From contig OY755240.1 in NCBI GenBank assembly GCA_963576725.1, positions 32,244,620-32,308,619 of the forward strand: a DNA stretch of 64,000 bases, written 5' to 3'. The translations under genes and the position numbers were made by a program. The notes under the pieces were generated by a model. That model did no database searches. It worked only from the letters and a program-made list of their open reading frames with translations, and was not told the origin of the DNA. The first letter of the stretch is position 1, and each line of letters starts with the position of its first letter. The DNA is from Azorinus chamasolen (Eukaryota; Mollusca; Bivalvia; Cardiida; Solecurtidae). This document shows positions 7,553 through 60,936 of the stretch, in pieces.

Positions 7553-7604
7553 CTGAATATTTAATTCTAAGTTTTTCCATTGACAAAATCTTGTGTATTT
7601 GTCA
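7553..7604 (-). CDS. GRK2: GRK2 exon: end of RGS helix bundle before kinase domain
   Basis: The 52-nt exon completes the split Ser codon and then reads DKYTRFCQWKNLELNIQ, nearly identical to vertebrate GRK2 DKFTRFCQWKNVELNIH. The acceptor is CTATTTTCAG and the donor is GTAAGTT after CAG, phase 0. The next expected segment ([20 protein letters not shown]-like, start of the kinase domain) is not visible in 1-7552 and should lie to the left of the window. A deleted family A MITE (7334-7497) ends 55 bp past the donor. Confidence 0.93.
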
Positions 7605-8733: not shown

Positions 8734-8964
8734 TTAACCCATTACCTCATAGGTTATTTTTAGACCCAACCTCTTTGAATAAATCTACCGAAAAGGAGCA
8801 TATTAACTAGAGAAAAGGAAAAGTTTAGAATTTTGTAGTTTGAAACCATTGTGATAAATAGAGCATTTGCTCCTATAGGAGCAAATGCTCTATTTATCAC
8901 AATGGTTTCAAGAAGTGACTATTACAGACACATAGAAAGGCATATTTATGGAGGAAAGGGTTAA
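8734..8964 (+). mobile_element. Family A MITE, full length
   Basis: TTAACCCATTACC to GGAGGAAAGGGTTAA. Perfect palindrome from GAAACCATTGTG to CACAATGGTTTC. Confidence 0.92.
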
Positions 8965-15598: not shown

Positions 15599-15660
15599 CT
15601 TTGTAGACTTTTTTCGAATATTCTGCCTCGCAATGAATTTCGTATTTCTTCTAAATATGG
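15599..15660 (-). CDS. GRK2: GRK2 exon: RGS-homology domain, PYLEEI segment
   Basis: The 62-nt exon starts in phase 0 after acceptor TTTTTCAG and ends with two bases of a split codon before donor GTGAG. It reads PYLEEIRNSLRGRIFEKSLQ, equivalent to vertebrate GRK2 [20 protein letters not shown]. The split codon AG|T gives Ser, as in GRK2 (ESDKF). A family A MITE starts 175 bp upstream of the acceptor. The exon is too short for ORF finders and was found by reading the minus strand for splice sites. Confidence 0.92.
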
Positions 15661-24165: not shown

Positions 24166-24228
24166 TGTCAAACAGTATGGATCCCGATATGACACGGAGT
24201 TACACAGCATCTCTAAAATTCTCCTGTA
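24166..24228. repeat. Family G arm
   Basis: GTCAAACAGTATGGATCCCG with ACACGGAGTTACACAGCATC. The second arm is lost where the minisatellite begins. Confidence 0.6.
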
Positions 24229-24234
24229 TGTAAA

Positions 24235-24870
24235 GTTGACTATTGCAATTATCGTAAGTATTCAGACACCCAATCTCCCCTCCCCTCCTGTTGTAAGTTG
24301 ACTATTGTAATTATCCTATGTATTAAGACATCCAATCCCCCCTCCCCTCCTGTTGTAAGTTGACTATTGTAATTATCCTATGTATTAAGACACCCAATCT
24401 CCCCTCCCCTCCTGTTGTAAAGCTGACTATTGTAATTATCCTATGTATTAAGACATCCAATCCCCCCCCCCCCCCCCCGCCCCTCCTGTTGTAAAGCTGA
24501 CTATTGTAATTATCGTAAGTATTCAGACACCCAATCTCCCCTCCCCTCCTGTTGTAAGTTGACTATTGTAATTATCCTATGTATTAAGACATCCAATCCC
24601 CCCTCCCCTCCTGTTGTAAGTTGACTATTGTAATTATCCTATGTATTAAGACACCCAATCTCCCCTCCCCTCCTGTTGTAAAGCTGACTATTGTAATTAT
24701 CCTATGTATTAAGACATCCAATCCCCCCCCCCGCCCCTCCTGTTGTAAAGCTGACTATTGTAATTATCCTATGTATTAAGACACCCAATCTCCCCTCCCC
24801 TCCTGTTGTAAAGCTGACTATTGTAATTATTGCAAGTATTCAGACACCCAGTCTCAACTCTTCACCTGCT
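24235..24870. repeat. 62-bp minisatellite, about 10 copies
   Basis: Unit contains GTTGACTATTGTAATTATCC, TATTAAGACA, CCCAATC and CTCCCCTCCTGTTGTAA. Alternating variants (ACACCC...TCTCCCC / ACATCC...CCCCCCT) and a larger internal duplication are visible. A C-run expansion lies at 24465-24478. Confidence 0.92.
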
Positions 24871-24884
24871 TGTAATGCTGAATA

Positions 24885-28059: not shown

Positions 28060-28500
28060 CATGGTTATTCAGAGACCAAGATAAGATGCGTAAATTAAAA
28101 TATTTTCAAGAATAAGACTCTTTATTTCTCCACTAAACCCTATCTTGTGACCACTCTTTAGAATCATCTCTTTGAGACGATTCTAAAGAGTGGTCACAAC
28201 TTAGGGTTTGGTTGAGAAATAATGATTTAACCCTTTCCTCCATAAATACGCCTTTCTTAGTAACGCCTCTGTAATAGTCACTTCTTGAAACCATTGTGAT
28301 AAATAGAGCATTTGCTCCATAGGAGCAAATGCTCTATTTATCACAATGGTTTCAATACTACACCATTCTAACATTTTCCATTTCTCAAGTTAATGCTCCT
28401 TTTTGGTAGATTTATTCAAAAAGGTTGGGTCTAAAAATAGCATGAGGGAATGGGTTAATTATTTGAATTATGCATCTTTATCTATTGCTCTGGTTATTAG
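28060..28500. mobile_element. Family C palindrome split by a family A MITE
   Basis: AAACCCTATCTTGTGACC / GGTCACAACTTAGGGTTT hairpin. The right arm breaks at ATGATTTAA and resumes TTATTTGAATTATGCATCTT, as in intact C copies. Confidence 0.83.
28227..28458 (-). mobile_element. Family A MITE nested in C, near GRK2 exon pair
   Basis: TTAACCCTTTCCTCCATAAA to GAGGGAATGGGTTAA. Lies 147 bp past the donor of alternative exon 2. Confidence 0.9.
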
Positions 28501-28605: not shown

Positions 28606-28692
28606 CTGGAATAAATTAGAACTTAACTTTTTCGTCCGCTGAGCAGTCGTGAGAGCATCTCGTACGTGCTCTAGTGCCGACTTAGAATAGTT
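28606..28692 (-). CDS. GRK2: GRK2 alternative exon, copy 2 (3' in transcript)
   Basis: A second 87-nt exon (29 codons, phase 0 both sides) with acceptor TCTTTTCAG and donor GTAAAG. It reads NYSKSALEHVRDALTTAQRT then KKLSSNLFQ. Its end LFQ matches vertebrate GRK2 DLFQ exactly and its start SKSA-EHV is the closer of the two copies to vertebrate sequence, so this may be the ancestral version. It differs from copy 1 mainly in charge near the C-terminal end (KKLSSN against KTLDKD). A 12-base or longer A run lies just downstream in the plus strand at 28579-28593, a T-rich tract in the intron after the donor. Confidence 0.9.
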
Positions 28693-28767
28693 CTGAAAAG
28701 ACAAGCACAGTCATTGACATTCCGTTGACAACAAAAATGATGGAAGACACACAATAGCGACTGTTAC

Positions 28768-28854
28768 CTCAAAAATATCCTTATCAAGAGTTTTAGTTCG
28801 CTGTGCCATTGTAAGGGCTTCTTGTACATGCTCCACAGCCTCTTTGGAATATGT
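28768..28854 (-). CDS. GRK2: GRK2 alternative exon, copy 1 (5' in transcript)
   Basis: The 87-nt exon (29 codons, phase 0 both sides) has acceptor TTGTTTCAG and donor GTAACAG. It reads TYSKEAVEHVQEALTMAQRT then KTLDKDIFE. It aligns to vertebrate GRK2 PFSKSATEHVQGHL...PPDLFQ, with about four extra residues in the loop. It joins in frame to the QAH end of the upstream exon and to PYLEEI of the downstream exon. It shares the YSK-A-EHV--ALT-AQRTK pattern with the exon 75 bp downstream. It is probably mutually exclusive with that exon, an inference from length, phase, similarity and the very short separating intron. Inclusion of both would also keep frame. Confidence 0.88.
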
Positions 28855-29084
28855 CTGAAACAAGGTAATGGCAGAATTCTTTGAGTAACAACACAGCAAA
28901 ATTAAACAGTTGTTCAAGAGCATTTGAATTTGTTTGCAAGAATTCTGCCATATATTAATTGCAGTATTCTAGCCATACTGATCCACTAAAAGTTATAAAA
29001 TATTTCTGCACTGTCAACTCTATAAGTTGGCTGCTATTGTTGTCCTGTAAAGAAATTGCAGAGAAATGTAATGGCCATCTACAA

Positions 29085-42583: not shown

Positions 42584-43578
42584 TTAACCCTTAACACAAT
42601 GCTGAATTTCCAAATGGACTATACCAAAATTCAAACAGGTCAAGCCCATGGTGAATATTTAGGGATTTTTCTAAAGAAAAGTGTAACATGACAAACAGTG
42701 CAGATCCAGATGAGAGGGCTCCTCTAGGAGCCATCTCATCTTGGTCTAACTGTTTCCAAAGGATATTAGTGACTGGTGTCCTGCACTGTTAGGGTGATTG
42801 GTGTCCCGCTCTGTTAGAGTGACTGGTGTCCAGCTCTGATAGGGTGACTGGTGTCCAGCACTGTTAGGGTGACTGGTGTCCAGCCAGCACTGTTAGGGTG
42901 ACTGGTGTCCCACACTGTTAGGGTGTCACTGGTGTCCAGCAATGATAGGGTGTCTGGTGTCCAGCTCAGGGTGACTGGTGTCCAGCTCTGTTAGGGTGAC
43001 TGGTGTCCTGCACTGTTAGGGTGACTGATGTCCTGCACTGTTAGGGTGACTGGTGTCCTGCACTGTTAGGGTGACTGGTGTCCAGCACTGTTAAGAGTGA
43101 CTGTTGTCCAGCTCTGTTAGAGTGACTGGTGTCCTGCACTGTTAGGGTGACTGGTGTCCAGCACTGTTAGAGTGACTGGTGTCCAGCTCTGTTAGGGTGA
43201 CTGGTGTCCTGCACTGTTAGGGTGACTGGTGTCCTGCACTGTAAGTGTGACTGGTGTCCAGCACTGTTAGTGTGACTGGTGTCCAGCTCTGTTAGGGTGA
43301 CTGGTGTCCTGCACTGTAAGGGTGACTGGTGTCCTGCACTGTTAGGGTGACTGGTGTCCAGCACTGTTAAGGGTGACTGGTGTCCAGCTCTGTTAGAGTG
43401 ACTGGTGTCCTGCACTGTTAGGGTGACTGGTGTCCAGCACTGTTAAGAGTGACTGGTGTCCAGCTCTGTTAGGGTGACTGGTGTCCTGCACTGTTAGGGT
43501 GACTGGTGTCCTGCACTGTTAGGGTGACTGGTGTCCAGCACTGTTAGTGTGACTGGTGTCCAGCTCTGTTAGGGTTAA
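42584..43578 (-). mobile_element. Family I MITE whose right end became a minisatellite
   Basis: TTAACCCTTAACACAATGCTG, hairpin AACAGTGCAGATCCAGATGAG / CATCTTGGTCTAACTGTTT, then GATATTAGTGACTGGTGTCC and the 25-bp array, closing TTAGGGTTAA. Confidence 0.87.
42766..43574. repeat. 25-bp minisatellite, about 32 copies
   Basis: Unit GTTAGGGTGACTGGTGTCC plus TGCACT or AGCTCT. Variants alternate in blocks, suggesting repeated local duplication. TTAGGG here belongs to the MITE end and is not telomeric. Confidence 0.95.
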
Positions 43579-45176: not shown

Positions 45177-45414
45177 CCCTTTCCTCCATAAATACGCCCT
45201 CCTACACCTCTGTAAAAACCACCAGTTGAAACCATTGTGATAAATAGAGCATTTGCTCCTATGAAACTCCTATAGGAGCAAATGCTCTATTTATCACAAT
45301 GGTTTCAAACTACAAAATTCTAAAAAAAATCCTTTTCTCTAGTTAATGCTCCTTTTCGGCAGATTCATTCAAAGAGGTTGGATCTAAAAAATAGCCTATG
45401 AGGGAATGGGTTAA
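45173..45414 (-). mobile_element. Family A MITE, enlarged loop
   Basis: TTAACCCTTTCCTCCATAAA to GAGGGAATGGGTTAA. Loop CTCCTATGAAACTCCTATAG. Confidence 0.9.
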
Positions 45415-50320: not shown

Positions 50321-50338
50321 AACATGGTGAAAAAGTTG

Positions 50339-50411
50339 TGACTCGACTGGGACTCGAACCCAGGGCCTCTGGCTTACCATGCCAATACTCTACCGACTGA
50401 GCTACCAAGCC
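50339..50411 (-). tRNA. tRNA-Thr(GGT)-like sequence, probably repeat-borne
   Basis: The minus strand folds as a full cloverleaf: 7-bp acceptor stem (three wobble pairs), TA at positions 8-9, GCTC/GAGT D stem, TTGGC/GCCAG anticodon stem, loop ATGGTAA with anticodon GGT, and CTGGG/CCCAG T stem with TTCGAGT loop. The A box (TAGCTCAGTCGG) and B box (GGTTCGAGTCC) are intact. It has no intron and no encoded CCA. Anticodon GGT is unusual for a eukaryotic nuclear tRNA-Thr, which normally uses AGT, and position 32 is A. Short inverted repeats flank it (see findings), so a SINE/MITE-carried tRNA relic is as likely as a working gene. Confidence 0.7.
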
Positions 50412-50967: not shown

Positions 50968-52799
50968 AACAAGAGGGCCAGAATGGCCCTGAAGCGCTCA
51001 CCAGACAATCAGAGGAGTAGATTTTCAAAGTTTTCACTATATGTTTCTATAGAAAACTAGCCTGCCCAGAGGCGGGGCTAATTTTGACCGAAGAGGCACA
51101 ATTTATATAACTTTTATAGAGGACCTGAACATGATCTTATGTGCCAAATATGAAAGTTGAGAACCTTCCAGTTTCAGGGAAGAAGATTTTCAAAGTTTTC
51201 ACTATGTTTCTATTGAAAACTGGCTACCCCTGGGGCGGGCCAATTTTGACCCCTGGGGCATAATTTATATAACTTTTGTAGAGGACCTGAACATGATGCT
51301 ATGTGCCAAATATGAAAGCTGAGAGCCTTCCAGTTTCAGAGAATAAGATTGTCAAAGATTTCACTATTTGTTTCTATTGAAAACTGCCCACCCCTGGGGC
51401 AGGGCCAATTTTGACCCAAGGGCCCTAATTTACATAACTTTTGTAGACCACCTGAACATGATGCTCTGTGCCAAATATAAAAGTTGAGAGCCTACCAGTT
51501 TCAGAGAAGAAGTTTTTCAAATATTTCACTATTTGTTTCTATTGAAAACTGCCCACCCCTGGGGTGGGACAAATTTTGACCCCGGGGCCATAATTTATAT
51601 AACTTTTGTAGAGGACCTGAACATGATGCTATGTGCCAAATATGAAAGCCGAGAGCCTTCCAGTTTCAGAGAATAAGATTGTCAAAGATTTCACTATTTG
51701 TTTCTATTGAAAACTGCCCACCCCTGGGGCAGGGCCAATTTTGACCCAAGGGCCCTAATTTACATAACTTTTGTAGACCACCTGAACATGATGCTCTGTG
51801 CCAAATATAAAAGTTGAGAGCCTACCAGTTTCAGAGAAGAAGTTTTTCAAATATTTCACTATTTGTTTCTATTGAAAACTGCCCACCCCTGGGGTGGGAC
51901 AAATTTTGACCCCGGGGCCATAATTTATATAACTTTTGTAGAGGACCTGAACATGATGCTATGTGCCAAATATGATAGTTGAGAACCTTCCAGTTTCAGA
52001 GAAGAAGATTTTCAAATATTTCACTGTATGTTTCTATTGAAAACTGGCTACCCCTGGGGCGGGGCCAATTTTGACCCTAGGTGCATAATTTATACAACTT
52101 TTGTAGAGGACCTGAACATGATGCTATGTGCCAAATATGAAAGCTGAGAGCCTTCCAGTTTCAGAGAAGAAGATTTTCAAAGATTTCACTATTTGTTTCT
52201 ATTGAAAACTGCCCACCCCTAGGGCGGGGCCAATTTTGACCCTGGGGCCATAATTTATATAACTTTTGTAAAGGACCTGAACATGATGCTATGTGCCAAA
52301 TATGAAAGCTGAGAGCCTTCAAGTTTCAGAGAAGAAGATTTTCAAAGATTTCACTATTTGTTTCTATTGAAAACTGCCCACCCCTGGGGCGGGGCCAATT
52401 TTGACCCCAGGGCCATAATTTATATAACTTTTGTAGAGGACCTGAACATGATGCTATGTGCCAAATATGAAAGTTGAGAACCTTCTGGTTTCAGAGGATA
52501 AGATTTTCAAAGTTTTACTATATGTTTCTATTGAAAACAAGGCACCCCTGGGGCGGGGCCAATTTTGACCCCAGGGCCATAATTTATATAACTTTTGTAG
52601 AGGACCTAAAGATGATACTATGTGCCAAAGATGAAAGCTGAGAACCCTGTAGATTCAGAGGAGAAGATTTTTTAAAGGTTCAAATTGTTGACGACTGACG
52701 ACGCACGACGGACGACTGACGACGGACGACGCACGCCGACGGACATCAGGCAATCACAAAAGCTCACCCTGAGCACTTTGTGCTCTGGTGAGCTAAAAA
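50968..52799 (+). mobile_element. HP element with about ten 160-bp core repeats
   Basis: AACAAGAGGGCCAGAATGGCC, AGCGCTCACCAG. Unit holds CTGGGGCGGGGCCAATTTTG, CATAATTTATATAACTTTTG, AGAGGACCTGAACATGATGC and TGTGCCAAATATGAAAG. A 320-bp double unit is duplicated near 51300-51960. Tail GACGACGCACGACGGACGAC, then CTCACCCTGAGCACTTTGTG and GGTGAGCTAAAAA. Confidence 0.9.
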
Positions 52800-56678: not shown

Positions 56679-58536
56679 ACAAGAGATGTTTGTAAAACAT
56701 GTATACCCCCCCCCCCCCCCAAGACCCCCTGACCTTTGATCTAGTGACCTCAACTATAGAGGTCATCTAGCGGTCATGACTAATCACCACAGCAACTTTG
56801 AATATCCTAAGCCAAACCACTGATCATTTATTGATCTGAAAACATTTCACATATTAAGGTCATGGTGACCTTGACCTTTGACCTAGTGACCTCAACAACT
56901 TTAGGGGTCATCAAGTGGTCACAACCAACTACCACAGCAAGTTTGAAGATCCCGAACCAAACCATTGAGCAGTTATTAATTGGAAACCATTTCATCAGTT
57001 AAGGTCATGATGACCTTGATCTTTAACCTAGTGACCTCAAAATCAATAGGGGTCATCTAGTTGTCATGACCAACCACCACAGCAAGTTTGAAGATCCTAA
57101 GACAAACCCTTGAGCAGTTATTAATCGCAAACCATTTCACCAGTTAAGGTCATGGTGACCTTGACCTTTGACCTAGTGACCTCAAAAATAATAGGGGTTA
57201 TCTAATGGTCATGACCAACCACCACAGCAAGTTTGAAGATCCTAAGCCAAACCCTTGAGCAGTTATTGATCGCAAACCATTTCACCAGTTAAGGTCATGG
57301 TGACCTTGACCTTTGACCTATTGACCTAAAAAACATTAGGGCTCATCTAGTTGTCATGACCAACCACCTAAGCAAATTTGAAGATTCTAAGCCAAACAAT
57401 TGAGCAGTTATTGATCAGAAACCATTTTACAAGTTAAGGTCATGGTGACCTTGACCTTTGACCTAATGACCTCAAATACAATAGGGGCCATCCAGTTGTC
57501 ATGACCAACTACCGCAGCAAGTTTGAAGATTCTAAGCCAAACAATTGAGCAGTTATTGATCAGAAACCATTTTACAAGTTAAGGTCATGGTGACCTTGAC
57601 CTTTGACCTAATGACCTCAAATACAATAGGGGCCATCCAGTTGTCATGACCAACTACCGCAGCAAGTTTGAAGATTCTAAGCCAAACCCTTGAGCAGTTA
57701 GTGATCGGAAACCATTTGACCAGTTAAGAGCATGGTGACCTTGACCTTTGACCTAGTGACCTAAAAAGCAAAGGGGTCATCTAGTGGTCATTACCAACCA
57801 CCACAGCAAATTTGAAGATCCTAGGCCAAACCCTTGAGCAGTTATCGATCGCAAACCATTTCACCCTTTAAGGTCATGGTGACCTTGACCTTTGACCTAT
57901 TGACCTAAAAAACAATAGGACTCATCTAGTTGTCATGACTAACCACCTAAGCAAATTTGAAGATCCTAAGCCAAACCCTTGAGCAGTTATTGATCAGAAA
58001 CCATTTTACCAGTTAAGGTCATGGTGACCTTGACCTTTGACCTAGTGACCTCAAAATCAATAGGGGTCATCCAGTGGTCATGACCAACTACCACAGCAAG
58101 TTTGAAGATTCTAAGCTAAACCCTTAAGCAGTTATTGATCGGAAACCATTTAACCATTTAAGGTCATGGTGACCTTGACCTTTGACCTAGTGACCTCAAA
58201 ATCAATAGGGGTCATCTAGTGGTCATGACCAACCACCACAGCAAGTTTGAAGATCCCAAGCCAAACCCTTGAGCAGTTATTGATCGGAAACTATTTCACC
58301 ATTTTAGGTCATGGTGACCTTGACCTTTGACCTAGTGACCTCAAAAACAATAGGGGTCATCTACTTGTCATGACCAACCACCACAGCAAGTTTGAAGATT
58401 CTAGGCCAAGTCGTTTATTAGTTATCGTTCGGAAACCATCGATCTACCGACCGACAGACCGACCGACCGACCGACCTACCGACCGACATGTGCAAAGCAA
58501 TATACCCCCATTTTTTCAAAAGGGGGGTATAAAAAT
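56679..58536 (+). mobile_element. HP element with about eleven 143-bp core repeats
   Basis: AACAAGAGATGTTTGTAAAAC, TATA plus a 15-base C run. Unit holds GGTCATGGTGACCTTGACC, TTTGACCTAGTGACCTCAA, AGGGGTCATCTAGTGGTCAT and CCACAGCAAGTTTGAAGAT. Tail of (GACC)n-type CCGACCGACCGACC, then hairpin TATACCCCC ... GGGGGGTATA and AAAAAT. A short plus-strand frame (58370-58603) derives from the tail. Confidence 0.92.
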
Positions 58537-60834: not shown

Positions 60835-60936
60835 GTGTGCCTGTGACAGTAGCTCCTTCATAATGTACTGGTCATAGATCTCCTTTCCCATAGCTATCCG
60901 TTCCTCGTCCGTTTCTAATTTCTCAAATTTTCTAAT
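60835..60936 (-). CDS. GRK2: GRK2 exon: RGS-homology domain, helix leading to MKELL
   Basis: The 102-nt exon (34 codons, phase 0 at both ends) is preceded by acceptor TTTTACAG and followed by donor GTAAGT. It reads IRKFEKLETDEERIA, then IYDQYIMKELLSQAH, closely matching vertebrate GRK2 around residues 89-122 (KKYEKLETEEERVA ... IFDSYIMKELL). In GRK2 this helix supplies G-alpha-q contacts (R106, F109, D110, M114, L118). Here the equivalents are K, Y, D, M and L, so the surface looks conserved. A family A MITE lies 47 bp upstream of the acceptor. An apparent longer reading frame over this exon runs into intron and is not the gene product. Confidence 0.93.

Follow-up and report, generated by a model that had tools for sequence, protein, structure and literature searches.

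The GRK2/3 gene of the clam-group, probably neoheterodont bivalve Azorinus chamasolen contains two adjacent 87-nt exons, A and B, which are probably tandem-duplicated substitution exons, mostly used singly and supplying two versions of helix alpha-6. GRK2 plays a central role in restraining G-protein-coupled receptors, and the gene models of related clams, which hold A or B, look like a splicing switch in the G-protein-gripping part of the enzyme. In the proposed mechanism, the upstream exon (ending at 60835) would mostly be spliced to A or B, and the chosen copy would then be joined to 15660. The two resulting proteins would have the same length, and the differences between them would be confined to alpha-6 of the RGS-homology domain and the loops on either side of it; A would be the conserved, ancestral-like version, and B a faster-changing, fold-constrained duplicate older than the split between Venerida and Myida. 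Both versions are presumably expressed in A. chamasolen, the choice between them may be regulated, and the swap could alter G-alpha-q capture or the packing of the RGS domain. As a tentative wider reading, neoheterodont clams might possess an ancient alpha-6 splice switch, with one conserved and one fast-evolving G-alpha-q-binding version, through which cells could adjust phosphorylation-independent damping of Gq signalling independently of the kinase activity encoded by this gene. An alpha-6 swap kept since before the Venerida–Myida split would, if true, be a natural experiment separating what GRK2 does through its RGS domain from what it does as a kinase.

Substitution exons are a known kind, and GRK2 is without a published example in the literature searched. 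No published description of the clam GRK2 A/B isoforms was found by title or abstract start, with most subscription journals outside the scope of the search, and the available text of PMC12084633 contains no GRK exon case. The isoforms themselves are already present in public annotation.

Structure and identity of the locus

The window, that is, the whole analyzed stretch of 64,000 nt, is part of a single GRK2/3 gene on the minus strand, in which five exons including A and B were mapped (Table 1). Reading a further 50 kb on each side added an RGS exon on the upstream side and two kinase exons on the downstream side, with the protein order kept. Both A and B are bounded by AG before and GT after, and their donors are GAG/GTAACA and CAG/GTAAAG, respectively. 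The preliminary description of this DNA had reported tandem 87-nt minus-strand exons of phase 0/0 with complete splice sites and similar peptides, and this was borne out, the two peptides sharing 17 of 29 residues. The junction coordinates given there were also right, since 60936-60835 ends with LLSQAH before GTAAGT and 15660-15599 starts with PYLEEI.

Table 1. Features of the GRK2/3 gene mapped in the window (a slash marks the exon end)
Feature	Position	Strand	Size and phase	Sequence	Remarks
Exon A	28768..28854	minus	87 nt, phase 0/0	TYSKEAVEHVQEALTMAQRTKTLDKDIFE	conserved version of the alpha-6 segment
Exon B	28606..28692	minus	87 nt, phase 0/0	NYSKSALEHVRDALTTAQRTKKLSSNLFQ	diverged version of the alpha-6 segment
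A–B intron	28693..28767	minus	75 nt		branch-point candidates by motif at +30 and +57
Constitutive GRK2 exon upstream of the pair	60835..60936	minus	34 residues		ends with LLSQAH; donor CAC/GTAAGT
Constitutive exon downstream of the pair	15599..15660	minus		PYLEEIRNSLRGRIFEKSLQ	starts with PYLEEI
Next GRK2 exon after 15599..15660	7553..7604	minus		DKYTRFCQWKNLELNIQ	
Perfect hairpin, candidate control element	28868..28951	minus	14 bp		arms 28951-28938 and 28881-28868

According to the exon coordinates, the introns flanking the pair are 31,980 and 12,945 nt long and the following one is 7,994 nt; three further introns measure about 25, 38 and 11 kb. The 75 nt of the A–B intron thus stand against ~8–38 kb for the six other mapped introns. 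A whole-genome search (1.72 Gb, 137 contigs), which scores the best candidates only, located the A–B block at one genomic place. A third copy or paralogue of the exon was not found by tblastn in the 164 kb around the gene, and on these two results such a reading was rejected.

Chance similarity was evaluated using 195 open AG-87 nt-GT stretches collected from both strands of the same 164 kb. The best of the 193 candidates other than A and B shared 5/29 residues against 17/29 for the pair, and chance similarity was therefore rejected.

The assignment of the gene to GRK2, made in the preliminary description, was confirmed by several lines of evidence. The joined peptide matched Pfam RGS at 33.7 bits with A and at 36.0 bits with B (cut-off 23.9), and with neither copy it gave no Pfam RGS match. 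With A and B together the score was 31.8 bits, a shorter part of the profile being covered, and the Pfam match by itself is compatible with joint inclusion. The segment matched 14 PDB sequences, every one of them GRK2 or GRK3, as in an RGS-homology domain of the GRK2 type, and human GRK2 chains matched it with either copy. The first exons of a GRK2-type kinase domain lie downstream in the correct order, one 33-residue stretch being 100% identical to Mercenaria. The closest protein records were those of clams, in keeping with the bivalve origin assumed in the preliminary description.

The alpha-6 segment and its coding constraint

The G-alpha-q-binding region of GRK2 consists of alpha-5 and alpha-6, as stated in the accessible part of PMC6499889. 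In an AlphaFold model built for the B isoform of Mercenaria, residues 123-151 correspond to the exon, which holds the whole helix 126-142. This helix occupies the position of alpha-6, with helices 98-119 and 151-161 on either side, and the exon would therefore swap alpha-6 together with two flanking loops. The AlphaFold models were poor overall (mean pLDDT of 57.4 for Mercenaria B and 54.6 for Mya A+B) and were used for the RGS region only, where the pLDDT of the Mercenaria B model was ~72-85. Foldseek ranked GRK2 structures first, with TM-scores of ~0.4.

Two points of the preliminary description had to be changed here. The segment had been placed merely after the helix contacting G-alpha-q; the exon itself contains alpha-6 and lies within the G-alpha-q-binding region. 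The equivalent of V137 had been proposed as a tuned residue; exon position 15, with which GRK2 residue 137 aligns, is Thr in A and B alike. A V137 swap as the tuning residue was thus rejected for A. chamasolen. The two copies differ at exon positions 1, 5, 7, 11, 12, 16, 22, 24-27 and 29.

The nucleotide identity between A and B was 53/87, and at codon positions 1, 2 and 3 it was 21/29, 22/29 and 10/29. The Nei-Gojobori method gave pS of 0.79 and pN of 0.27. When an equal number of changes was placed at random in 5000 replicates, a pN/pS ratio as low was obtained in two and 17 shared residues in none. Synonymous sites are saturated and replacement sites are not, which indicates that the copies are old and that both have long been kept as protein.

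A and B in the records of other animals

Three protein searches returned 51 of 93, 27 of 111 and 764 of 2074 candidates; for the last, the best 120 of the 764 were listed. In total, 124 distinct proteins were inspected by script, and the anchor motif was not found in one (P0055). The records of named relatives are mostly gene predictions. Among the 124 proteins, Ruditapes X2 and X3 and Mercenaria X2 were A-type clam records, and the B-type named records were Ruditapes X1, Mercenaria X3, Mya X3, Dreissena X2 and that of Mactra. The B-type exon without A was also present in the unnamed P0008, P0014 and P0015 (705-710 residues), whose flanks are clam-like; as they derive from contigs of at most 3.2 kb, these represent cDNA-like sequence. 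In 2 of the 124 proteins A and B were joined in frame, both from Mya, namely X2 (733 aa) and a partial sequence (records P0003 and P0004, respectively), and both look like gene models. None of the 124 was a joint A+B record of Ruditapes or Mercenaria. An A-only record of Mya, Dreissena or Mactra was likewise not seen among the 124; the searches list cluster representatives, so that isoforms of nearly the same sequence may be masked by their cluster and the absence of one counts for little.

The idea of mutually exclusive use, put forward in the preliminary description, therefore stands in one part: the Ruditapes and Mercenaria records carry one copy at a time. Its strict form is weakened by the two Mya records that join A and B, and exclusivity is probably not absolute.

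In the GRK2 genes of other lophotrochozoans, for which the preliminary description had proposed a search for both versions, A and B were found in Ruditapes, Mercenaria and Mya, and a single A-like exon in other lineages. The latter was present in the inspected records of the unionid Potamilus (Palaeoheterodonta), scallop, Saccostrea and Solemya as well as in those of gastropods, chitons, annelids, brachiopods and nemerteans, in both sets with adjoining inserts in some. Among the 124 proteins, those from outside the clam group showed no second copy of the alpha-6 exon. In contrast to the clam pair, the GRK2/3 of these other animals has a single version of the alpha-6 exon, in the same RGS-homology domain and at the same position; in the vertebrate and most arthropod GRK2/3 records among the 124 proteins, the segment is four residues shorter.

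The junction of the alpha-6 exon (after QSH) carries inserts in other molluscs, of ~58 residues in Biomphalaria X2 and ~49 residues in the unnamed P0043, and a TFLQ insert occurs at this junction in Crassostrea virginica and two unnamed records (the records with junction inserts are P0065, P0043, P0037, P0039 and P0041). The junction before the alpha-6 exon seems prone to splicing change in molluscs. A GRK record of Ascaris lumbricoides (P0055) contains a tandem repeat of the segment starting with DKFTRFCQWKN, perhaps as an artefact of the gene model. It scored alike and was rejected as a tandem A/B case, a different segment being repeated.

For the comparison of segments, four segments of type A, eight of type B and 20 single-copy ones (15 named and 5 unnamed) were used, which came from 30 of the 124 proteins and the two window copies; near-duplicates, insert-bearing oyster records, flatworms, rotifers, arthropods, deuterostomes and several further lophotrochozoans were left out. 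The exon length was 29 codons in 12/12 A and B segments. Pairs of A segments were identical at 27-29 of 29 residues and pairs of B segments at 11-20, except for 25/29 in a pair of unnamed contigs; between Mya and Mercenaria, the identity was 28/29 for A and 15/29 for B. Exon position 7 is V in 4/4 A and 19/20 single-copy segments and L or F in 8/8 B segments, and position 1 is T in the same 4/4 and 19/20 and never T in the 8 B segments. In a FastTree phylogeny of the 32 segments, the B segments grouped together with a support of 0.872, and so did the A segments (0.969), a result that is suggestive, as the alignment has 29 columns. Two unnamed B-type contigs had plain identity equal to A and B and were put with B by the diagnostic sites and the tree.

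All 20 single-copy lophotrochozoan segments compared resemble A, which indicates that B is the duplicate and predates the split between Venerida (Mercenaria and Mactra) and Myida (Mya and Dreissena), two orders of Neoheterodontei. Judging from these segments, the simplest history would be one duplication before this split, after which A remained close to the original form; A has hardly changed, and B changes rapidly under the constraint of the fold.

The far faster change of B would also be expected if one copy were a non-functional, unused relic. This is highly improbable, however, since both copies have open frames, splice sites and constraint at the protein level, and B has records of its own in several species and is also carried by cDNA-like contigs. 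It is possible, though somewhat doubtful, that both versions do the same work and that the duplication is neutral or a backup, with B under relaxed constraint, which would be compatible with A and B as substitution exons. The rate of B and the Thr shared by both window copies at the position aligned to residue 137 agree with equal function, but B has features of its own across species (positions 1 and 7 in 8/8 B segments) and has persisted in two orders.

Splicing of the pair and comparison with known systems

In the preliminary description, the 75-nt intron was proposed as a possible hindrance to splicing of A to B. The accessible part of PMC7969005 gives a steric limit of ~50 nt between donor and branch point. 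The best acceptor-near candidate in the A–B intron, predicted by motif only, is at +57 (18 nt from the intron end) and thus above this limit, and only the other candidate, at +30, is below it, which weakens the case for such a block. The difference between 75 nt and introns of 8-38 kb is compatible with a donor–branch point constraint and is no proof of it.

Joint inclusion of A and B keeps the frame, both copies being open, in phase 0 and 87 nt long; nonsense-mediated decay would therefore not enforce exclusivity, and this explanation was rejected. The four donors are GTAAGT (upstream exon), GTAACA (A), GTAAAG (B) and GTGAGT (downstream exon), and none agrees with the U12 donor consensus. With no U12-type donor at either copy, U2/U12 incompatibility was rejected as well. 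Since neither the frame nor the splice-site class enforces exclusivity, the locus is a test case for exon choice with a very short intron in a very large gene. Matches to the donor consensus were 6/9 for A, 7/9 for B, 8/9 for the upstream exon and 7/9 for the downstream exon.

Competing RNA structures were not supported at the source locus: folding around the pair gave z of +0.73, with 79/100 shuffles folding as well, and for pairing of intron elements around the copies 419/500, 130/200 and 168/200 shuffles paired as well. The 14-bp hairpin ends 13 nt before exon A and folds better than 197/200 shuffles; its core is rare by copy number, its own two arms being the sole matches at up to two mismatches. 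It could control the acceptor of exon A and is regarded as a candidate element. The short intron, the weak donors and this hairpin are candidate causes of exclusivity. An AG-free stretch in the 75-nt intron was discarded as a sign of a distant branch point, because 72 of 3998 minus-strand AG gaps are equally long.

A and B could also be optional cassette-like tandem exons, with A alone, B alone and A+B as regular products and a functional, longer RGS domain in A+B. We consider this unlikely. The preserved frame, the Pfam RGS match of A+B (31.8 bits), the two Mya records with both copies and the space that the +57 candidate leaves for A-to-B splicing agree with it, whereas the Ruditapes and Mercenaria records are separately A or B and never joint. 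The AlphaFold model of Mya A+B, which is of low quality, gives pLDDT <50 for residues 126-156, covering most of copy A, and shows the second copy as a helix. This model would fit an RGS domain with room for one copy, and it is weak evidence, because a single alignment row holds both copies.

As substitution exons, A and B resemble exons 4a/4b of vertebrate OGDH, for which the available part of PMC7969005 describes tandem duplicate internal exons, a short intron and the tuning of one protein segment. The shortness of the OGDH intron is due to branch points close to its donor, at a distance of 25-41 nt (46 nt in a fish), whereas the acceptor-near clam candidate is at +57. Joint inclusion breaks the frame in OGDH and keeps it in clam GRK2. 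Moreover, OGDH splicing was demonstrated by experiment, and the clam pair is known here from sequence and records. Exons 10A/10B of oyster alternative oxidase (accessible part of PMC5589949) are also similar to the GRK2 pair in being a tandem exon duplication of a bivalve with alternative use and with a conserved and a faster copy. They differ in that they are terminal exons with alternative 3' splicing, belong to another gene and another bivalve lineage, and had their expression measured. The clam pair agrees with the features used to predict human mutually exclusive exons (similar sequence, same frame and same length), as far as these are given in the available part of PMC5740500; the human set was validated by RNA reads, unlike the clam pair. 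According to the same source, exclusive splicing is lacking in many cases of neighbouring exons with similar sequence.

The window contains 61 inverted repeats, most of them in repeated elements; eight are low-copy, including the hairpin before exon A. A palindromic element beginning with TTGAAACCATTGTGATAAATAGAGCATTTGCTCC (28285-28355 and, e.g., 8840-8911 and 45226-45308) has many recurrences in the GRK2 introns, as a short non-autonomous transposon would. A tRNA-Thr (GGT) gene or tRNA-derived repeat is located inside a GRK2 intron at 50338-50411 on the minus strand. Large tandem-repeat arrays were found in the introns at 24221-24881, 42769-43575, 51009-52671 and 56730-58439, with periods of ~62, 25, 165 and 145 nt, respectively.
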